Below are positions 232 to 27,088 of a DNA stretch of 37,475 bases, one piece after another; position 1 is the first letter of the stretch; each line of letters begins with the position of its first letter. The translations under genes and the position numbers were made by a program. The notes under the pieces were generated by a model. The model did no database searches and was not told the DNA's origin. It saw only the letters and a list, made by a program, of their open reading frames with translations. The stretch lies in assembly GCA_017466405.1 (NCBI GenBank), contig JAFTUF010000061.1, forward strand, positions 1 through 37,475. The letters run 5' to 3'. This stretch comes from Bacteroidales bacterium. Lineage in GTDB: Bacteria; Bacteroidota; Bacteroidia; Bacteroidales; F082.

Positions 232-495
232 TTAATTACCAGTTTCTTCACTCTTGCTTTTTTCATATAGTTCGGAATAGACCTTGAAGAAGTCGTGATT
301 CAAAGCCTTCGATATATCAAAAAGCAAGTCTGTATAAATCCAAGGACGGCGAAATACCTTATAAAGATTTTCCCTTGTACAGTTAACTTGTGCTGACAAC
401 CACGTTATGGTACGACCCTGATGACGTAATTCATCCTTAATCATATTACCGATATGAACATCCTCTGTTGTTTTAACTTTATTTTCCATAGCCAT
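232..495 (-). CDS. Small XRE-like helix-turn-helix protein
   Basis: This 87-residue protein is probably a DNA-binding regulator. The central part (about residues 15-75) has the pattern of a Cro/XRE helix-turn-helix: an IKDEL start, TWLSAQVNCTRENLYKVF as the turn region, and a hydrophobic ISKALNHDFF end. Stand-alone proteins of this type are common in Bacteroidales and their targets are mostly unknown. The start used is the first of two in-frame ATGs (495 and 489). The coding region starts 31 nt downstream of the T-run that ends the structured RNA at 527-700, so the RNA may act as its leader or attenuator, or may simply be a neighbour with its own terminator. It is separated from the efflux operon by divergent orientation. 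The family assignment rests on sequence pattern only. Confidence 0.75.
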   Translation of the reverse strand: MAMENKVKTTEDVHIGNMIKDELRHQGRTITWLSAQVNCTRENLYKVFRRPWIYTDLLFDISKALNHDFFKVYSELYEKSKSEETGN

Positions 496-526: not shown

Positions 527-700
527 AAAAAGCGTGAATTGCCTCGCATTGCTTAAATAGACTTAGTAGGTTCTGGTAAAACCGCAGCAACTAAATAAAC
601 ATGAACAATTCACGCCATCAGACGCGAACCGCTCGTAGTCTTATTCTCTTTGCTTGAAATTTACCAGATTTACTAAGTAGAGAACAAGAGCACTAAGCTC
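527..700 (-). ncRNA. Candidate structured RNA with pseudoknot (copy 1)
   Basis: Read on the minus strand. Hairpin P0 lies at 700-688 (GAGC/GCTC). The linker begins TTGTTC. P1 pairs 678-671 with 568-561 (8 bp) and P2 pairs 667-660 with 580-573 (8 bp). An inner stem pairs 654-650 with 590-586 and 645-641 with 598-594. A 10-bp pseudoknot pairs 615-606 with 541-532, and the second strand runs directly into TTTTT at 531-527. The same plan, with different but still complementary bases, recurs at 22288-22463. A TAAATTTG -7 box lies upstream at 772-779. It may be a free RNA ended by its own terminator or an attenuating leader of the HTH gene. I do not recognise the family. Confidence 0.65.
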
Positions 701-771
701 TAACTTTCAATATGTTATTATTTCCTTTTTTTATTTTATATTATTGTTTTTCCATTTTCCTTTCGGAATGG

Positions 772-779
772 CAAATTTA
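772..779 (-). promoter_or_regulatory. -7 box TAAATTTG for the minus-strand RNA/HTH unit
   Basis: The minus strand matches the Bacteroidota TAnnTTTG consensus. Transcription would begin near 764 and run through the structured RNA. No convincing -33 TTG is seen at the usual 19-bp spacing. Confidence 0.45.
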
Positions 780-15657: not shown

Positions 15658-17913
15658 TTAACACGTACTATCTTCAATGATTTTTATATCATCTCTCGAT
15701 AATTCATATGCTTGATAAATCAATTCGTCTATCTGCTTTTCAATTGCAGATGTATCTGTTGTGTAATTTGTTAGTTTGGCATCAATAACTTTTTTTACAA
15801 GTTCTGAAATTTTAGCTTGAAGGGGTTGACTTAATGCAGGTATTGGGAAATTATCAACCTCATAGCCATTTACATTACTATTTGTACTAAAGCACCTAAA
15901 GAACCAATTTATTGTTTTTGAGTTCAAAAATCCTAACAAACAATACAAATCCATTCCTTGTATTGGCAATATGTAATTACAAGAATTAGCCAAATAGAAT
16001 CCTTGTGGAACAATAGACATTACAAGTCTAATCTTATCATTAGCGCCCGTCATTCCTTGCATTACAATTCTTTCAAATCTATGATGAGAAGATTTTTCTG
16101 TATTACCATATTCCAATAAATACATATCTTCTTCAAGATAATCAATTTGACCTTGACTCATTTGAAGTGTATGATAATATCTCTGGATTGAAGCTCCTTT
16201 CAAAATGATAGGGTTTAATACATTAGAACCAAAATACTTCTTATGGAATGTTACATTCAGTTCTCCTTCAATACACTTAAGAGATAATTCTTTCTTCTTC
16301 AACAACTTTATTATAGTTGTTTTGTATTCTGGTCGTAACCTTGGAATTGTATAATCCACGCTATCAATAGCCATAATATCATTAAGAGAAAAACATGTGC
16401 TCAACCCTGATGATTTATATTTATCATCCCACACATATACAGGGAAAATATAATCATTATCCACCTTTGTATTTTGTATTAACGATACACATACACTCAT
16501 CTTTACACTCTCAAAAACGCGTTTCTTTTTACTATCACGTTCTGGAAAAGAATCAATCTTAAGAATTTTGTCATTTTCAAGAATGTACTTTCTCAAATTA
16601 GTAGCTTGTCTGTCTCCTAAGAATGAATTTTGGAATATAAAACAATTTATACCATTTGTAGACAGCAATTTCTTAACTGCATTTGCTATAAAAAGCTTAT
16701 AAGCATTTAATTTTCCTCCAAATGCGATTGTGTAATCTTTATCGCAGCGCAAATCTTTAATTTCTCCAACATGTGATTCTTGATATAAAAAATACGGCGG
16801 ATTCCCTATCACAATATCAAATCCTCCTTTTGCGAAGACGTCGCTGAACCAGGTGTGCCAGAGGAAGAAGTGGGTGTTCTCGGCGAGGTTGATGTGCTTC
16901 AGCTCGTGGAGGATGGCGGGGTCGAACTTCTGGAGTTCTAACTGCTGGCTGATGGCGTGGCTGATGTCGCGTTGCAGACGGTGTTTCTGCTCGTGGTCGG
17001 AGCAGGAATAGTATTGTGTGAGGAGCTGCGTGACTCGTCGCTGCAGCTGGTTGGTGTCGTCGTCGAAGATGGAGTATTCGGTGATGTGCGACTTGTCTTT
17101 GTTGTCGTAGGTGAGTCGGCTGAGGTCCATGCCTTTGTAGCTCTCGATGAGGGAGTTGCCTTGCATGATCTTGTAGTCTAAGTTGGGCAGTGGCGAGGCT
17201 TTTTCTTCATCGACTACTATGCTGAGCCAGAAACGCAGACGGGCTATATCGACGGCTCCTTTTTCGATGTCAACGCCGTAGATGTTGTTTTGGATGATAT
17301 CCTTTTTAAGGATAGAACGGGAGATGGGGACGGGTGCGGGTGTGAGGGCTTCGCGGCATTTCAACAGTTCGTTTAACAATCCCATGGGGAAGGCTCCGGA
17401 GCCGATGGCGGGGTCGCAGATCTTGACGTTTTTGAGGGCGTTGAGGAGTTTGTCTTTTTTGTTGTCGGGTATGAGAGCGACGCCTTCTTCGGGTTGCATG
17501 ACGAAGCGTCGTATCTTGTCGGCGGCAATGGATGTGGCGCTGTCGAGGTATGCGATGAGCGACTCGCGACACATATAGCTGACGATTTCCTTGGGTGTGT
17601 AGAAGGCTCCTTTGTCTTTGTTGTCTTCGAGGAGGTTTTCGAAGATTTTGCCGAGCATCTCGGGGTCGACGCCTATCTCAGCGTCGTTGGGGTCGTTTTC
17701 GTCGATGGTGAAGTTGTATTCGCTGAAGAACTGGAATAGTCGTTGGAAATATTGTGCCGGGAAACGGCTTTCGGGTTCGTCGGTGGCGTCGCGTTCGAAG
17801 AGTCCGCCGTTGAGATATGGTATGTCGCGCCATTCGTGGAGGAGTGTTTTGTCCCAATGGTAAAGGCCGAACAAAGTCATGCGTTCTTCTTTGAGTATAT
17901 CATGTATTACCAT
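15658..17913 (-). CDS. Eco57I-type N6-adenine methylase/restriction protein, N-terminally truncated and mosaic
   Basis: This 751-residue product contains an intact gamma-type N6-adenine methylase core: FYTP (104-107), motif I DPAIGSGAF (167-175), motif IV NPPY (371-374), and a C-terminal target-recognition region with a typical TaqI/Eco57I-like end. Full-length relatives are usually above 1,000 residues with an extra N-terminal part before the PYLNGGLF segment. Here that part is missing, so a nuclease or targeting region was probably lost. The first half (about 16820-17913) is clearly GC-richer, with many GCG, GTC and CTC codons. The second half is AT-rich. The switch falls at the NPPY motif, consistent with replacement of the specificity half by recombination. 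HEPN gene follows. Confidence 0.82.
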   Translation of the reverse strand: MVIHDILKEERMTLFGLYHWDKTLLHEWRDIPYLNGGLFERDATDEPESRFPAQYFQRLFQFFSEYNFTIDENDPNDAEIGVDPEMLGKIFENLLEDNKDKGAFYTPKEIVSYMCRESLIAYLDSATSIAADKIRRFVMQPEEGVALIPDNKKDKLLNALKNVKICDPAIGSGAFPMGLLNELLKCREALTPAPVPISRSILKKDIIQNNIYGVDIEKGAVDIARLRFWLSIVVDEEKASPLPNLDYKIMQGNSLIESYKGMDLSRLTYDNKDKSHITEYSIFDDDTNQLQRRVTQLLTQYYSCSDHEQKHRLQRDISHAISQQLELQKFDPAILHELKHINLAENTHFFLWHTWFSDVFAKGGFDIVIGNPPYFLYQESHVGEIKDLRCDKDYTIAFGGKLNAYKLFIANAVKKLLSTNGINCFIFQNSFLGDRQATNLRKYILENDKILKIDSFPERDSKKKRVFESVKMSVCVSLIQNTKVDNDYIFPVYVWDDKYKSSGLSTCFSLNDIMAIDSVDYTIPRLRPEYKTTIIKLLKKKELSLKCIEGELNVTFHKKYFGSNVLNPIILKGASIQRYYHTLQMSQGQIDYLEEDMYLLEYGNTEKSSHHRFERIVMQGMTGANDKIRLVMSIVPQGFYLANSCNYILPIQGMDLYCLLGFLNSKTINWFFRCFSTNSNVNGYEVDNFPIPALSQPLQAKISELVKKVIDAKLTNYTTDTSAIEKQIDELIYQAYELSRDDIKIIEDSTC

Positions 17914-17944
17914 ATCTATTTCTTTTACATAACAATATTAATTG

Positions 17945-17952
17945 TACTTTTG
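17945..17952 (+). promoter_or_regulatory. -7 box TACTTTTG for the DUF2971 gene
   Basis: TAnnTTTG match 94 bp before the ATG at 18047, located just outside the truncated methylase start. Confidence 0.4.
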
Positions 17953-18046
17953 CATGGACGAATAAATTCGACGTAGGAATTTGTTTTGACAATTGCACGC
18001 CACACTTTTTCGTTCAATTTCTTTTTATTAAATATATAGATCTCAT

Positions 18047-18982
18047 ATGAAAAGTAATAAATCACTGTTATTAAGGGATTTTCTTGAAGTTGAAAACATA
18101 GAAAATTGCAAACCTTGCGAACTTGAGTTAGCTTATGAAAACATCATAGATAGGGATAGTAAAAGTGATATATCATATCATTTAGACAATCTTTGTTATG
18201 ATGCCTTCAAAAGACTACCTATTGACAAAAAAGAAAGACATGTGTTGCGCTTTATAAAATTTCCACCACAAAAGGATAAAAATGGACAAGAAAAAGGATG
18301 GGACGGTTCACAATGCCCTATAATTAGTGATATAAATAATTGCACAATAACATTAAGCTCTCCGAATGGGTTTAATGACCCAATGGATCCTTTGATAAAG
18401 AATTGGTTGGTAAATAAAAATAAGGAACAAAAAAATGATAAAAAAATATATCAATTTATTATAGAAGCACTTGATAAAATTAGGATATGTTGTTTGGTTG
18501 ACCCAAACATCAACAATAACATTTTTAACAACATATTTCGCAAGAAAAACGGATACGATAATCCTCTAATGTGGTCACACTATGCTGATAGTCATAGAGG
18601 GATCTGTATTCAATATAAGATCACACAATCTAATCTTGCAGATAATAAAGATGAAATAGTACGTTTACTTGATATAGATTATTACAAATCATTTCCATTA
18701 GATGGTAATATTTCATTTATTGACTCGCTTATAGTGAAATCCAATTATTGGAAATATGAAAAAGAAACTCGTCTGATAATCTATCCTCGTAATGTTGTTG
18801 ATAAGTATTATCAGTTATCTAACTTCGAAGTAGAATCCGTATATATGGGAGTTCGAATAGATAATAAAAAGCGTGATTTTTTGAAAGATATGTTGAAGAA
18901 TAATTCTATAAAATTATATCAAATGACATTCTCAAAAAACGACATAAGCAAATTAGAAGCTAAAGAAATACAAAAGAAATAA
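18047..18982 (+). CDS. DUF2971 family protein
   Basis: This 311-residue protein carries the DUF2971 pattern. It has LSSPNGFNDPMDP (about 113-125), an ICCLVDP strand, the central PLMWSHYADSHRGICIQY block near 180, and KSNYWKYEKETRLIIYP near 238-254. The first 80 residues are a variable N-terminal extension. DUF2971 proteins occur widely in bacterial accessory regions and defence islands, with no established activity known to me. The gene is AT-rich and opposite in strand to the truncated methylase. It begins 133 bp from the methylase start, so this is where foreign plus-strand DNA begins. Confidence 0.8.
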   Translation: MKSNKSLLLRDFLEVENIENCKPCELELAYENIIDRDSKSDISYHLDNLCYDAFKRLPIDKKERHVLRFIKFPPQKDKNGQEKGWDGSQCPIISDINNCTITLSSPNGFNDPMDPLIKNWLVNKNKEQKNDKKIYQFIIEALDKIRICCLVDPNINNNIFNNIFRKKNGYDNPLMWSHYADSHRGICIQYKITQSNLADNKDEIVRLLDIDYYKSFPLDGNISFIDSLIVKSNYWKYEKETRLIIYPRNVVDKYYQLSNFEVESVYMGVRIDNKKRDFLKDMLKNNSIKLYQMTFSKNDISKLEAKEIQKK

Positions 18983-19111
18983 AACATCTTTGGATATAAA
19001 TAATAATGCTTAAAAAAATAACTTTATACCTATATTTTTCATTTGCTGCTAGAGATCTTTGCTATTTAACTAAAAATATGCTGAGTTCATCTGTTATACA
19101 GAAAAATTCAG

Positions 19112-19119
19112 TAACTTTG
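19112..19119 (+). promoter_or_regulatory. -7 box TAACTTTG for the PLD/zinc-ribbon operon
   Basis: TAnnTTTG match giving a leader of about 88 nt to the ATG at 19215. It suggests that the next two genes form a unit separate from the DUF2971 gene. Confidence 0.4.
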
Positions 19120-19214
19120 TCGGAAACTAACGTAGTGATTTGTTTCTACTATACAATTCTGAGCAAAAGCAATTTCATTATGTTGTTAATTTAAGTGAAT
19201 ATTTTCTTTCTATT

Positions 19215-19976
19215 ATGAGCAATAACACAGAAGTAATTTTTGAAAATATAGAACAACGTATCATTCAGGAAATAAATGATGCTCATTATGCCATATTTGT
19301 TTCTGTTGCATGGTTTACAAATAAGAAGTTGTTTAATGCTCTACTTGAAAAGGCTAAAAACAATTGTTATGTATCGATAATCATACAATTGGATGAAATT
19401 AATTCGCAGTGCGGAATTGATTATAGCCAGATTCAAATAGGACGCTCTGAATGTTTCAAGATTTCTAAAGATGCAGAACTATTACATGATAAGTTTTGTG
19501 TGATTGATTTTAGAAAGGTTATTACAGGCTCATACAATTGGACTTACAAAGCATCACATAATAGTGAAAACATACTTATCCTAAACGACCCTTCTGTTGC
19601 CACTCAGTACATAAGCAGATTTGAACAACAGAAAGCCAAGTTTAATGATTCGAGTATTCAACAGAAATCTCAACCATCTGTTCCTGTAAATAATTTTATC
19701 GACACGCCAAAAGTAACTTATTCTGTTATTCAAATTAAAGATAATGCAGTACCAAGCACAAAGCAATGTAAGTATTGCAATAAAGAAATTGGTTATAGTG
19801 ATGCATTTTGTCAATATTGTGGTAAACTTCAAGATGGATTTCAGCATAAAAGGAAATCAATCGTAGTGACTTGCAAAAAGTGTTCACGCAAACAAGAGGA
19901 AGCACTGATTGATGCGGTGAGTACAAAATTTTGCACTTTCTGCAAGAGTGACAATTTGGAGTGGAACTTAGAATAA
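19215..19976 (+). CDS. Single-HKD phospholipase D-like nuclease with two C-terminal zinc ribbons
   Basis: This 253-residue protein has one PLD active-site motif: H91, K93 and D98 in LLHDKFCVIDF, with GSYNWT at 105-110. A single-HKD protein normally dimerises to form one active site, as in Nuc-type nucleases. After a linker (about 140-180) come two zinc ribbons: C185/C188/C199/C202 and C220/C223/C240/C243. ATG 19215 was chosen; the upstream extension has no family similarity. The next gene starts 19 bp downstream and also carries zinc ribbons, so the two are probably co-expressed. A nucleic-acid-targeting nuclease role is an inference. Confidence 0.8.
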   Translation: MSNNTEVIFENIEQRIIQEINDAHYAIFVSVAWFTNKKLFNALLEKAKNNCYVSIIIQLDEINSQCGIDYSQIQIGRSECFKISKDAELLHDKFCVIDFRKVITGSYNWTYKASHNSENILILNDPSVATQYISRFEQQKAKFNDSSIQQKSQPSVPVNNFIDTPKVTYSVIQIKDNAVPSTKQCKYCNKEIGYSDAFCQYCGKLQDGFQHKRKSIVVTCKKCSRKQEEALIDAVSTKFCTFCKSDNLEWNLE

Positions 19977-19995
19977 ATCATTAATAAAGAAGTAT

Positions 19996-21207
19996 ATGGC
20001 AACGTCATCATTTAGAATTGATTATGAAAAATATTTATGGACTGACATAAAAGTTTTTTGTCCAATCTGCAAAAATAACTTTACTGGATGGTACTGTCCT
20101 TCTTGCGGATTACCAAAGAAAAATAGTAAATATGCCCTTAGTGAATATGGATCACTACATAATTGTAGACAATATCACTTTCGTCCTGAATTTTCATCAT
20201 TTGAAAACATTCAATTATGTGACAAGTGCTACACAACTAATCCATCTAATGCAAAATATTGTAGAAACTGCGGTAAGAAATTCACATCATCAAAGGGTAT
20301 CTCTAAAGATGCACATGCTTGGGTAGATTTAGGATTATCTGTCTTATGGGCAACAGAAACGATAGAAGGACTATATATGTGGAATTACGCTGAAAAGTTG
20401 TATCATGCCACTGATATGGATTTTTATAGAAAACTGGAACCAAAAGAACTGAATGATGTTGCCACTCAGAAATGGGGAGAAAGATGGAGAACTCCAACTA
20501 AAGAAGAGTTTGAAGAATTAGTTATAAAATGTAAATGGGAGAAATGCTTGCATCCTATTTCAAATAAGCATGCTTTAAAAATAACAGGCCCTAATGGGAA
20601 TTCTATCACCATACCTGTAACAGGGTATGCAGGGTGCAAAGAAAAGCCGATTAGAATTTTTCCAGACATTAGCATTTCAATGGGTGACTCAGAAGCAGAA
20701 CATTCGATATGTGCTTTATGGACATCCTCAGAAGACAAGACTAAACCTCATAGAAGAGCTTATGCTTTCCATTTCAGAGGATATGAAGGTTTTACAAAAA
20801 CACTTACTGCTAAGGAAAAAAAAGAGCAAGAGTTTAAAAATAACAGAGACCATAGGAGATTTGAATCAATGTTTGAACCAATTGAAATAGATTACGATTG
20901 GTGGAAACCTGGAATTTCCGAAAAACGTCAGCAAATAATGGACAAGAAAGAAAAACGTTGGCAAATAGAAAGACAAAAAGAAGAAGAAGAGAGACAAATC
21001 TTGAGAAATATGGGTGATGACAGCCAAGAACGGGCTGATAATATCAAAAAAGATGAAGAAAGAAGACGTAGTCTCTGGTTAGACACACCTATAGAAATGC
21101 ATTATAATGAAGAACGTATCCATAGAAATACTATAAGACCTATTGAAAAAGATCAAGGATATGCCATTCTTCCTGTAGCTGATAAGAAATGGCAGGGACG
21201 TCTATGA
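19996..21207 (+). CDS. Zinc-ribbon protein with FISUMP-like domain and charged coiled coil
   Basis: This 403-residue protein has two N-terminal zinc ribbons (C22/C25/C34/C37 and C75/C78/C89/C92). Next is a domain beginning AWVDLGLSVLWATETIEG (108-125) and including WRTPTKEEFEEL (164-175), GNSITIPVTGYAG and ALWTSSED. Blocks of this form (VDLGLSVKWA, RLPTxxE, P-A-G, WSS) are common in secreted or lipoprotein Bacteroidota proteins. Here there is no signal peptide and the domain is fused to cytoplasmic-type zinc ribbons, which is unusual. A very charged helical stretch (about 308-360) follows. Its pairing with the PLD nuclease 19 bp upstream suggests a joint function as sensor or adaptor; this is inference. 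Confidence 0.7.
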   Translation: MATSSFRIDYEKYLWTDIKVFCPICKNNFTGWYCPSCGLPKKNSKYALSEYGSLHNCRQYHFRPEFSSFENIQLCDKCYTTNPSNAKYCRNCGKKFTSSKGISKDAHAWVDLGLSVLWATETIEGLYMWNYAEKLYHATDMDFYRKLEPKELNDVATQKWGERWRTPTKEEFEELVIKCKWEKCLHPISNKHALKITGPNGNSITIPVTGYAGCKEKPIRIFPDISISMGDSEAEHSICALWTSSEDKTKPHRRAYAFHFRGYEGFTKTLTAKEKKEQEFKNNRDHRRFESMFEPIEIDYDWWKPGISEKRQQIMDKKEKRWQIERQKEEEERQILRNMGDDSQERADNIKKDEERRRSLWLDTPIEMHYNEERIHRNTIRPIEKDQGYAILPVADKKWQGRL

Positions 21208-21241
21208 TGTCTTGGTCTTATCAAATACGTAACGCACCATT

Positions 21242-21287
21242 CCTGTACAGGTATGACCAGCTAACTGTATAGTATAGATCCGCTGGC
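21242..21287. repeat. Palindrome CCTGTACAGG and adjacent CCAGC/GCTGG hairpin
   Basis: A perfect 10-bp palindrome (21242-21251) is followed by a 5-bp stem (21257-21261 with 21283-21287). They lie in the leader region before a 28-codon ORF. Possible operator or leader structure. Confidence 0.35.
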
Positions 21288-21332
21288 AGGAGAAGTCCTA
21301 TATTAAACTAATCTTAAAATAGGAGATCTGAA

Positions 21333-21419
21333 ATGAAAATTTCGTTCAAAAATTTTAAGTTAGAAATCAATGTTAAGGAAATGCTTACAATGTATTTCAT
21401 TATTAAGTCATTATTCTAA
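21333..21419 (+). CDS. Candidate 28-residue small protein
   Basis: An ATG is preceded by AGGAG at 21321-21325, one of the better Shine-Dalgarno matches in this window. The product begins MKISFKNFKLEI and ends with a hydrophobic MLTMYFIIKSLF. A strong terminator follows 13 bp after the stop. It may be a small membrane-associated peptide, a type I toxin-like product, or the tail of a lost gene. I do not recognise a family. Confidence 0.45.
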   Translation: MKISFKNFKLEINVKEMLTMYFIIKSLF

Positions 21420-21431
21420 CACTGTTTCTAA

Positions 21432-21469
21432 GCCTGCCGTCTAGCAACAGAAAAACGGCAGGCCTTTTT
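21432..21469 (+). terminator. Strong rho-independent terminator
   Basis: GCCTGCCGT pairs perfectly with ACGGCAGGC, followed by CTTTTTA. It ends the plus-strand island block 21333-21419 just before the truncated PLD gene. Confidence 0.88.
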
Positions 21470-21495
21470 ATTACTCAACAAACAAATTTAACGAA

Positions 21496-22230
21496 TTATA
21501 GTTTCATGAAGAAGTCGTCTTCCACCTGGTCGCCGAAGGTGTCGATAAGGACTTTGATGTATACCTCGTAGGGCGTGGGCTGATTGTCGATGTAGGTTTT
21601 TCTCTTGTATTTCTCTATGTCGTCGATGGTTAGAAGTATGGCTTCGTTCCATAGTTTCCAGAATTCGTCGGAGCAGTATTTCACGTCGTCGTAGTCTTTC
21701 ATAGCGACGTTGAGTTCGTAGCGTGGCGTTTGCTTTGTTCCTAATCCGGAGTCGGAGATGTTGGAGGAGCCCATAATGACCCATCCGTCGCTGTGCGGGG
21801 TGTGTTCTTTGGGGAGGCAGAGGTAGAATTTGGCGTGGAGGTTTTTGGTGGAGTGTATCTTCATCTGTAGCCGTCCGCTGACGAGGTCGTCGCACATCTG
21901 CAGTATGCCCTCCTCCACTTCGGGCGAATATCGTGCGTTGATGATGTCGTCTTTGAAGGCTTTGCTGTATATCTCCTTGGCTTTCTCGGGGTCGGCGAGC
22001 ATCAGCAGCGCTTTGTTGTATTTTCGGAAAATGTCGTCGATGTTGATGCCGACGAGTATCTTGATTTCTGTGATGTCGCCTAATTCCTTGCGCAGCTTGA
22101 AGTAGCCCGAGGAGCGGAAGAATCCTACTACGGCTAAGAAACTGTGGAATGACGACATGCCGCCGGCAATGCCCTTGAGCTTGTCGAAGAGTGTATTGCC
22201 AGGTTCGTTGTTGAAGAACTTGGTGGTCAT
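21496..22230 (-). CDS. PLD-like N-terminal part of a helicase, truncated
   Basis: This 244-residue product matches the N-terminal PLD domain found in large Bacteroidota SNF2/DEAD-type helicases: FFNNEPGNTLFDKL, then VVGFFRSSGYFKLRKEL and KILVGINIDD, and the single HKD motif in LHAKFYLCLP with GSSNIS. In full-length relatives the TPYEVYIKVLIDTFGD segment (about 218-233) leads into the helicase motor. Here the frame stops at FFMKL a few residues later, so about 800 residues are missing. The gene is GC-rich, like the first half of the methylase at 16820-17913 and unlike the AT-rich genes between them. It is probably the left-over start of the helicase that once preceded that methylase. Confidence 0.72.
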   Translation of the reverse strand: MTTKFFNNEPGNTLFDKLKGIAGGMSSFHSFLAVVGFFRSSGYFKLRKELGDITEIKILVGINIDDIFRKYNKALLMLADPEKAKEIYSKAFKDDIINARYSPEVEEGILQMCDDLVSGRLQMKIHSTKNLHAKFYLCLPKEHTPHSDGWVIMGSSNISDSGLGTKQTPRYELNVAMKDYDDVKYCSDEFWKLWNEAILLTIDDIEKYKRKTYIDNQPTPYEVYIKVLIDTFGDQVEDDFFMKL

Positions 22231-22287
22231 GCGCTAATGTTTTGTGAGCGGCTACTTATTTGGTAAAACGGGCTTTCTGCAGGACAC

Positions 22288-22463
22288 AAAAAAAGCATGG
22301 GCGATAATCTTGTCCATGCCCAAGGTCCTGAGAAAACCCGTAAAAACCAGACAAGTTATGCCCACGCTTAAAGCGCAGACATTCGCAACTTGTTCACGGT
22401 TTTTACTGTCATTCTAAAATTTCTCAGGTTTTAGGGCATTACCGAACAAATAGCAAACGCTAT
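22288..22463 (-). ncRNA. Candidate structured RNA with pseudoknot (copy 2)
   Basis: Same plan as 527-700, on the minus strand. Hairpin P0 is at 22463-22450 (ATAGC/GCTAT), and the linker begins TTGTTC. P1 pairs 22439-22434 with 22321-22316 and P2 pairs 22428-22420 with 22335-22327 (9 bp). P3 pairs 22406-22398 with 22348-22340 (9 bp) and P4 pairs 22393-22387 with 22357-22351. The pseudoknot pairs 22367-22351 with 22313-22295 with two small bulges. The 3' strand runs into TTTTTTT at 22294-22288. It ends 57 nt before the truncated PLD-helicase start. A matching -7 box is not clear. Confidence 0.65.
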
Positions 22464-22497
22464 GGTTCTATTTTATTTTTATTTTGTTTTTTTTGTT

Positions 22498-22608
22498 TTA
22501 AGGTCGACAGATAATGGTCAACGGTTTGTGTGTTTTGAGACGCAGCAATTACAGATTGTTAATTTTTTAAAGGTGTAATTGATACGTCTCTACAGTCTGC
22601 GACCTTAA
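22498..22608. repeat. 111-bp two-level inverted repeat
   Basis: Outer arms TTAAGGTCG/CGACCTTAA (9 bp). Inner arms are GAGACG/CGTCTC (22537-22542 with 22585-22590) and CAATTACA/TGTAATTG (22546-22553 with 22574-22581). It could be a small mobile repeat or an RNA. The GAGACG...CGTCTCTAC core is the same as in 23892-23918. Confidence 0.75.
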
Positions 22609-22658
22609 TTTATTTTTTGTTTTTTCTGTTTCTTGAATTGGATTTTAAAATGTTATGT

Positions 22659-23804
22659 TTATAAATGTTTTAATTCGTTGTTTAAAAATTCTATCAAAGA
22701 TTCCTTCGATGGGAGTTGTAATAAATATTTTGATACAAATAAGTTTTCATCCATTCCAGCAGTAGCATATCTTACCATGTCGCTTGAAACATCTGTACAA
22801 AGCAAAATCCCAATTGGCGGATTGTCGTCTTCTGTTTTTATCTTATCATGATAGTATGCAACATACGTATTTAATTGAGCGATGTCAACATAACTGAATT
22901 TTCTTGTTTTTAATTCTATCAACACGTGACACTTCAATATTCTATGATAAAAAACCAAATCTATGAAGAAATATTCATTATCAATAAGAATACGTTTTTG
23001 TCGGGCTTCAAAACAAAATCCATTGCCAAGTTCCAAAATGAAATCTTGAATATGAGTTATCAACATTGATTCAAAATCATTCTCTTCCACGACATCGGAA
23101 CCTTTATATCCAAGAAATTCAAATACGTATGGTGATTTTATGATATTTGTTGTTGCGTAACGTTCTGCTTTTTGATGAACCAAACTCGTCAACAACTCTG
23201 GTTTATTGCTTAGATTAGAGCGTTCATAGCAAGATGATTCTATCTGACGTTTTAATTCTTTTACACTCCAACATCCTTTGATGGTCTCTATTTCGTAAAA
23301 TACTCTTTTTAGAGGTTCATCAATGTATATAAGTTCTGCAAAATGAGAGAACGAAAGATTATTGAATAATTTTGCTGGTTCAATTTGCGGGAATTTTTCA
23401 GTTGCCGACTGAAAAATCTGCATCTTATTGGTAATTAAATCATTAAATGTAGTATTGTCTGGTATTAGTATTTTTTCAGTCGTTGACTGAAAAATATCAA
23501 TATACCTTTGATTGTACAGATAGTTCTTAACTTCTATTCCAATAGATGGATAGGTTAAATAAAATTTTCGACATTGACTTAATGTTGTTGCACCTAATCC
23601 TTTAACACTTATTGTCTTTGCAATTGTATCAAGTAATTTATCTCCATATTTAGCTCTGTCTTCTCCATTTTGTTCAAACTCTACAATCCAAAATCCAACT
23701 AACCAATTACGTACGGTAATATTTTGATTAATTGCACGAAAGGCATTATTCTGCAAGATTTCGTGTGTGAATCTGATATTGTTTGTTAATTGTGGAAAAT
23801 TCAT
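22659..23804 (-). CDS. YhcG/DUF1016 family PD-(D/E)XK nuclease
   Basis: This 381-residue protein has the two-part YhcG layout. An N-terminal helical DUF1016_N domain (about 15-190; TVRNWLVGFWIVEFEQNGEDRA) is followed by a C-terminal PD-(D/E)XK nuclease (about 210-370) with D282 in FFIDLVFYH and E297/K299 in LIELKTRKF. The middle contains two near-identical short inserts (FQSTTEK at 105-111, FQSATEK at 131-137), each encoded by a 10-bp inverted repeat. Proteins of this family are common in restriction and defence islands and are also linked to transposition-like recombination. It is separated from the PLD gene by two structured intergenic elements. Confidence 0.85.
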   Translation of the reverse strand: MNFPQLTNNIRFTHEILQNNAFRAINQNITVRNWLVGFWIVEFEQNGEDRAKYGDKLLDTIAKTISVKGLGATTLSQCRKFYLTYPSIGIEVKNYLYNQRYIDIFQSTTEKILIPDNTTFNDLITNKMQIFQSATEKFPQIEPAKLFNNLSFSHFAELIYIDEPLKRVFYEIETIKGCWSVKELKRQIESSCYERSNLSNKPELLTSLVHQKAERYATTNIIKSPYVFEFLGYKGSDVVEENDFESMLITHIQDFILELGNGFCFEARQKRILIDNEYFFIDLVFYHRILKCHVLIELKTRKFSYVDIAQLNTYVAYYHDKIKTEDDNPPIGILLCTDVSSDMVRYATAGMDENLFVSKYLLQLPSKESLIEFLNNELKHL

Positions 23805-26854: not shown

Positions 26855-26897
26855 TGTGTATAAACAAAAAAATCCAGCTTGAAAACCGGATTGCATG

Positions 26898-26981
26898 TGC
26901 CCATGAGAAGACTCGAACTTCCAAGAGCTTAAGCTCACTACACCCTGAATGTAGCGTGTTTACCAATTTCACCACATGGGC
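26898..26981 (-). tRNA. tRNA-Leu (anticodon CAG)
   Basis: The 84-nt minus-strand gene has a GCCCATG/CATGGGC acceptor stem, D arm and a CTACA/TGTAG anticodon stem with loop TTCAGGG (anticodon at 26945-26947). It has a long class II variable arm and a TTCGAGT T-loop. No CCA is encoded. Confidence 0.95.
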
Positions 26982-27004
26982 TTTAAGCTATTGGTTTTTT
27001 TGTG

Positions 27005-27088
27005 TGCCCAGGACAAGAGTCGAACTTGCACGACGCATTCGTCACCACCCCCTCAAAGTGGCGTGTCTACCAATTTCACCACCTGGGC
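27005..27088 (-). tRNA. tRNA-Leu (anticodon GAG)
   Basis: The 84-nt minus-strand gene has a GCCCAGG/CCTGGGC acceptor stem, a CCACT/GGTGG anticodon stem and loop TTGAGGG (anticodon at 27052-27054). It has a long variable arm and TTCGACT T-loop. It lies directly upstream of tRNA-Leu(CAG), 23 bp apart. Confidence 0.95.

Follow-up and report, generated by a model that had tools for sequence, protein, structure and literature searches.

Two intergenic sequences on the minus strand of a 37,475-nucleotide (nt) contig from a Bacteroidales bacterium (GenBank assembly GCA_017466405.1, contig JAFTUF010000061.1; the whole contig, positions 1 to 37,475, is the window) are copies of what we rate as a new, apparently unnamed class of a kind already known, the structured regulatory leaders. 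The class is about 150 to 210 nt long and has a constant core made up of P1, P2 and three conserved segments next to P2, namely AAAUUU, GGU and ACC. It is widespread in gut and environmental Bacteroidota and lies mainly as a 5' leader RNA ahead of unrelated accessory genes. We favor the view, at a probability of roughly 60%, that it is a bistable cis-acting 5' leader, namely a transcription attenuator that would operate by a relay of pairing strands. An earlier note on this DNA had described the two copies as a two-member RNA family with covarying helices and a pseudoknot; a class of many members, the position directly upstream of same-strand genes and the exchange of strands were absent from it.

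The family is not limited to two members, as the own genome (G000) holds seven to eight copies by covariance model and the class well over 100 members. In DNA searches of the own genome copy 2 gave a full-length match of 74% identity on another contig (E 3e-18), and shorter matches pointed to two additional copies. A search pattern taken from own-genome copies, with CTG..AAATTT and GGT..T..CAGRACCT fixed, matched 13 of 149 genomes of the family, the reversed control pattern none. The pattern also matched at least 118 stretches of a genome collection, nearly all titled as Bacteroidales groups, and seven viral contigs, one of which (locus L157) was discarded as a chance match. After merging of identical cores 133 distinct ones were left. 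Four were removed by eye: L089, L127 and L157 were coding-like or had no 3' strand, and L117 lay at a contig end. The remaining 129 members gave 103 non-redundant ones after a filter for 80% identity and flanks.

Seventy of these 103, picked by hand, were aligned with MAFFT (alignment A5). The consensus fold consists of P1, P2 and an inner hairpin, A:B, with 15 pairs that changed on both sides. In the 21-pair structure 97.1% of the paired cells were standard pairs compared with 80.1% after shuffling and 23.5 to 49.8% with slid partners, and the covariation score was 0.563 compared with 0.219 for shuffled and at most 0.091 for slid partners. Six of the seven P1 pairs showed 25 to 39 double changes among the 70 sequences. 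Thus the earlier idea of a selected RNA structure with covarying P1 and P2 is backed by strong covariation. The search pattern fixes CTG, AAATTT and CAGRACCT, and the invariance of these bases in A5 is therefore in part a result of selection. In 17 helix pairs 120 cells were G-T and 11 were A-C, which indicates that the folding molecule is RNA of this strand. All 103 of 103 members had a hairpin at the P0 position when as few as 3 base pairs were accepted, which is a lenient criterion. The short common block of the earlier note was found as GGT..T..CAG.ACCT in all five first-aligned copies; its full TTTT held in four of them (copy C42 reads GGTAAT). Folding without an alignment gave different folds for copy 1 and copy 2. 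MAFFT alignments of three to five copies were dropped because P1 and the inner stems were poorly aligned, a padded hand alignment was set aside, and a 28-member alignment of the main subfamily was inspected only. In many members an additional hairpin of variable sequence stands right after the promoter-like box and before GACATA(T), its form being retained (by eye). A leader peptide (MLIL-stop) in some P0 loops was rejected, as by eye it is not retained across members.

P0, the TTGTTC linker, P1, P2, the inner stems, the distal strand and the T-run were all present in both copies at the minus-strand places first proposed for them. Listed 5' to 3' along the RNA, the parts are:

527-700 (-), copy 1, structured RNA, intergenic
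688-700 (-), P0 hairpin, the 3' arm of which forms the 5' portion of strand Z
680-687 (-), linker TTGTTCTC, the remainder of strand Z, complement of GAGAATAA at 641-648
671-678 (-), P1 5' strand ACTTAGTA
660-668 (-), P2 5' strand TCTGGTAAA, then a conserved TTT
621-648 (-), strand A region, with GAGAATAAG at 640-648 and the hairpin arm GAGCGGTTCGCGTC at 621-634
586-616 (-), strand B, GGCGTGAATTGTTC at 603-616 plus an extension; partner A or C
572-580 (-), P2 3' strand TTTACCAGA, within the conserved block GGTTTTACCAGAACCT at 568-583
561-568 (-), P1 3' strand TACTAAGT
532-554 (-), strand C, complement of B
527-531 (-), T-run, immediately 3' of C
22288-22463 (-), copy 2, structured RNA, intergenic
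22450-22463 (-), P0 hairpin
22442-22449 (-), linker TTGTTCGG, complement of GAACAA within 22387-22397
22434-22439 (-), P1 5' strand ATGCCC
22420-22428 (-), P2 5' strand CCTGAGAAA
22387-22406 (-), P3 5' strands (GTAAAAACC, ACAAGTT)
22372-22382 (-), hairpin arm of strand A, ATGTCTGCGCT
22340-22368 (-), strand B (AGCGTGGGCAT) and P3 3' strands
22327-22335 (-), P2 3' strand TTTCTCAGG, within GGTTTTCTCAGGACCT at 22323-22338
22316-22321 (-), P1 3' strand GGGCAT
22295-22314 (-), strand C, GACAAGATTATCGCCCATGC
22288-22294 (-), T-run

The distance of 152 nt from P1 to the end of the T-run was exact in both copies but is a tendency and not a rule, since three other copies in the own genome measured 150, 152 and 182 nt.

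The strands follow each other in the order P0 5' arm, Z (P0 3' arm plus linker), A, B and C, with neighbours complementary. A is the 5' arm and B the 3' arm of the inner hairpin; strand C, located 3' of P1, is A-like and complementary to B. The best hairpin shared its B arm with the B:C duplex in 100 of 103 members. The energy of A:B was -18.2 with the own partner and -13.1 with a foreign one, that of B:C -23.2 and -17.0, respectively (0 of 2000 permutations each). The likeness of A and C was 6.37 within one RNA compared with 5.66 between RNAs (0 of 2000) and 5.01 for shuffled C. Against the nearest relatives the signal of the shared strands was weaker.

The 5' portion of A has its complement in strand Z, which is approximately GUUAUGCUUAUCUUGU in the main subfamily. 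Compared with shuffled Z the pairing Z:A had a mean z of -3.36 and was below -2 in 94 of 103 members. It used at least 3 nt of the P0 arm in 95 of 103 members, and on average 72% of the nucleotides targeted by Z were also used by P3 or A:B (102 members). Control windows gave mean z values of -0.36 and -0.01. The signal of Z with C (mean z -1.54; 40 of 103 members) is what would be expected if C resembles A. Directly after C the T fractions of successive positions were 0.82, 0.79, 0.60, 0.76 and 0.70 at a background of 0.30, and a T-run was present in 80 of 103 members. Some members of the family have one more strand complementary to C, namely D, which reads GGRACTG and was seen by eye in a hairpin loop ahead of the start codon. 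The permutation p for D:C was about 5e-4 (n=46), while the comparison with shuffles was weak with a mean z of -0.77 (10 of 57) for D:C and of -0.04 (2 of 57) for B:D. The long-range 3' pairing of the proposed pseudoknot was thus borne out; its strand is common to a second, incompatible helix, which points to a switch rather than to a single static structure.

The trp attenuator and strand-displacement riboswitches are leaders with alternative terminator and antiterminator helices. Likewise, the present RNA is mainly a 5' leader, co-oriented with the gene that follows, and it contains exclusive helices that share one strand, one of them followed by a T-run. Its mechanism may be pictured as follows. 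In most members the leader has its own promoter-like box, and each relay strand could pair with either neighbour. In a first state P0 and A:B would be formed, leaving C free, and RNA polymerase would read on into the gene. In a second state Z would pair with A and B would be passed on to C, with B:C directly before the T-run acting as an intrinsic terminator. In a subset D (GGRACUG), in the hairpin loop just before the start codon, may pair with C as well. The balance might be set by a small molecule, by a protein that binds the RNA or by a second RNA. The sequences themselves show the structure, the sharing of strands, the T-run, the same-strand position and the spread; termination by B:C, the assignment of the ON state and the sensing of a signal are our inference. 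The presence of the same core before unrelated genes suggests one common signal. Unlike the known attenuators and riboswitches the exchange would involve four strands or more, among them the P0 arm, the downstream genes have no common pathway, and there was no match to a known aptamer. The class is unusual in its multi-strand relay, its breadth and its shuffling.

The spread was determined with a covariance model (R1) trained on A5, which includes both window copies and two other own-genome copies. The window copies scored E 7.8e-16 and 5.3e-15, by construction since both are in the training alignment. Own-genome copies outside of it scored 3.8e-9, 5.8e-9 and 7.8e-9, and an eighth copy 2.8e-4. 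At E ≤ 0.01 R1 had matches in 59 of 60 genomes from the genus, up to 20 in each; at E ≤ 0.001 it matched 60 of 198 genomes from the order, and at E ≤ 1e-4 26 of 296 from a phylum sample. Apart from the own genome, these 26 comprised one from its order, 23 from other orders of its class and one from a different class. Twenty loci chosen from the phylum-sample matches had retained P0, the linker complement, P1, P2, A:B, C and the T-run (by eye). BLAST yielded copies in plasmid records of Phocaeicola massiliensis, Parabacteroides distasonis, Bacteroides finegoldii and B. uniformis and in a replicon of Prevotella oral taxon 299. Four of the five listed plasmid copies (L256-L259) carry the P2 variant CGTAGGAAA/TTTCCTACG instead of the fixed CTG/CAG and were therefore overlooked by the search pattern; L255 retains CTG. 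A covariance search of the kind suggested in the earlier note thus returned many further homologues with preserved pairing.

If the RNA acted in cis, it should be linked to the next gene. Open reading frames (ORFs) were called from ATG with at least 60 amino acids (aa) for the 129 loci and at least 40 aa for two other genomes and the distant loci; this overlooks short genes and those with other starts, and counts doubtful short ORFs in the latter two sets. Of the 129 loci, 116 had their first downstream ORF on the same strand, 7 on the opposite one and 6 had none, while the upstream neighbour was on the same strand in 68, opposite in 52 and absent in 9. In 94 loci the gene started within 170 nt of the conserved block, usually shortly 3' of the T-run. 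In the two other genomes, with 20 of their 27 matches considered, the next ORF was on the same strand in 17 of 20 (6 of 9 and 11 of 11), and in the distant loci of the phylum sample in 18 of 20, doubtful short ORFs included. A TAnnTTTG box, which we take to be the Bacteroidota promoter consensus (-7-like box), lies no more than 160 nt upstream of P2 in 115 of 129 members, a raw count without a shuffled control; in 85 of these 115 the nearest box was 74 to 112 nt before P2.

These data bear on the possibility that the RNA is a trans-acting small RNA with an ordinary terminator, acting by base-pairing or by sequestering a protein and located before genes by chance. The promoter-like box and T-run of its own fit such a gene, as does a second promoter-like box ahead of the downstream gene in 8 of 106 members. 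Some distant members have the next gene far away or opposite: in 6 of 17 listed distant loci a gene for at least 856 aa follows after 247 to 439 nt, and the one product scanned is a TonB-dependent receptor, so that the link to the gene is less tight there. Yet a same-strand gene at a mostly similar short distance is unexpected for a trans-acting RNA, and it is not obvious what a strand relay would do in a static one. We therefore regard this explanation as unlikely.

The genes behind the leaders share no theme. In 91 scanned downstream proteins BspA-type LRR, Fib_succ_major, HSDR_N and Por secretion tails occurred four times each (best 25 of 68 families), and PADLOC reported methyltransferases and an HKD+Snf2 type once or twice each (best 25 of 51). 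A common downstream pathway was rejected with top families at 4 of 91 for Pfam and 2 of 91 for PADLOC, and there was no hint of a ligand from these genes within the same limits. The lack of a metabolic theme, and a long leader with pseudoknot-like pairing ahead of accessory genes, would suit a protein-binding or processive-antitermination leader that makes polymerase terminator-resistant over acquired genes. The put, EAR and ops-type elements are structured leaders of this kind that act on RNA polymerase, EAR with a pseudoknot. In contrast to them the present RNA has no Rfam match, carries its own terminator-like B:C with a T-run and is spread over the Bacteroidota. No candidate protein came to light, though no search aimed at one was made; antitermination appears quite unlikely.

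Close leaders stand before different genes. Among the 28 pairs of leaders that are 80% identical or more, only 8 had homologous downstream proteins by BLASTP; two of the 20 pairs without homology involve L031, where the ORF is probably miscalled and the flank is about 70% identical. In many close pairs the 300 nt flanks were at background identity. One plasmid copy lies directly before a cargo gene for a DarT-domain protein, another directly before a beta-lactamase MUN-1 gene and after a mobilization gene. This raises the question of whether the RNA is a mobile DNA or RNA element, palindrome-ended or intron-like, that inserts into 5' leaders and whose fold serves movement. Pair L083/L132, 96% identical with sharp edges on both sides, matches near contig ends, the plasmid copy beside the mobilization gene and the viral contigs speak for it. 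On the other hand, ends common to all 13 aligned pairs and a target duplication were lacking (by eye), and the promoter-like box, the 5' hairpin and in places D were retained in form on both sides. The excess of G-T over A-C cells favors RNA. Transposases and reverse transcriptases were absent from the 25 commonest families of the 91 downstream proteins, with the qualification that two of nine upstream proteins scanned in the distant loci were IS1595 transposases. A transposon or intron is not borne out by the alignments of close pairs, and mobility as the purpose of the fold seems quite unlikely to us.

Some observations on the surroundings are added here. In L282 and L284 a divergent IS1595-type transposase gene lies 106 to 204 nt from the RNA, and three of the seven non-transposase upstream proteins scanned in distant loci match HTH_3 (E 8.5e-14, 1e-11 and 6.8e-6). 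Tandem leaders about 200 nt apart were seen at L203:270-603 and L211:4030-4359, and a tandem duplication of leader and gene at L201:1269-2519. In the fragmented assemblies G179, G233 and G336 (including loci L202-L213, L216, L217 and L219) many matches lie near contig ends (by eye), as though assembly had failed at the leader in the way it does at repeats.

In the window the leaders are accompanied by the following:

771-779 (-), copy 1, promoter -7-like box TAAATTTGC
232-495 (-), gene behind copy 1, 87 aa, helix-turn-helix-like by eye
21496-22230 (-), gene behind copy 2, 244 aa, PLD-like domain (PF13091)

The T-run is 31 nt from the start of the 87 aa gene in copy 1 and 57 nt from that of the 244 aa gene in copy 2. 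The 87 aa protein gave no match in a Pfam scan; BLASTP-linked relatives of its gene sit behind six other members. A promoter box of the TAnnTTTG type was absent within 160 nt upstream of copy 2. A large inverted repeat, imperfect and seen by eye, is also located 5' of copy 2 at 22500-22620 (GAGACG..CAATTAC and GTAATTG..CGTCTC), with the flanks TAAGGTCG and CGACCTTA. The region around copy 2 (15658-23804) holds defence-like genes, namely an Eco57I-type methylase, two PLD-domain genes and a YhcG/DUF1016 nuclease. Two neighbouring tRNA-Leu genes with the anticodons CAG and GAG are located at 26897-27088.

In line with the earlier note, no Rfam family was matched: Rfam 15 at gathering score gave no match over the RNA in the window, both copies, 12 loci, one further member and the 20 distant loci, and at E ≤ 10 both copies and one further member had weak sub-threshold matches only. 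Neither outcome named in advance as speaking against the family, a lack of further homologues or a clear Rfam match, appeared. 6S RNA (RF00013) and 6S-flavo (RF01685), both presumably part of the Rfam library used, were not reported in the scans of window, copies and other loci. The Bacteroidetes FopS paralogous small RNAs (RF04319) are likewise a multi-copy RNA family of, by their Rfam name, the same phylum. They differ in having 71 positions; near copy 1 they gave no more than a sub-threshold match at 778-851, upstream of the leader core, and in L044 their match is kilobases away from the leader. RF01685 is listed as 6S-flavo in a table of PMC2864571, and the same paper has Bacteroidales-1 RNA as RF01693, a structured Bacteroidales RNA of 179 positions with no role assigned there. 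Unlike the present RNA with its seven to eight copies, RF01693 had no match in the own genome at E ≤ 0.001; its model does match one control genome, a Bacteroides. A literature search, its scope being texts other than supplements and subscription papers, returned no account of this RNA, and Bacteroid, Prevotella, Parabacteroides and Porphyromonas do not occur in the main text of PMC11109978 and PMC8632094.

Taken together, we favor the attenuator with a strand relay. A bolder reading, possible though rather doubtful, is that of a horizontally shuffled RNA control cassette of the Bacteroidota, by which acquired accessory genes would repeatedly come under one signal-sensing leader, so that up to about 20 unrelated foreign genes per cell would share a single RNA-level gate. 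The cargo would be defence, toxin, surface and resistance genes, and the cassette would be an RNA counterpart to the protein silencers of foreign DNA. If true, the class would also be a large, well-aligned target in the search for riboswitches or RNA-binding proteins. With several to about 20 copies per genome in gut-type Bacteroidota, this complex, deeply conserved RNA poses a regulatory question that can be addressed in Bacteroides, and one signal gating dozens of unrelated acquired genes would explain how mobile cargo is controlled in these genomes.
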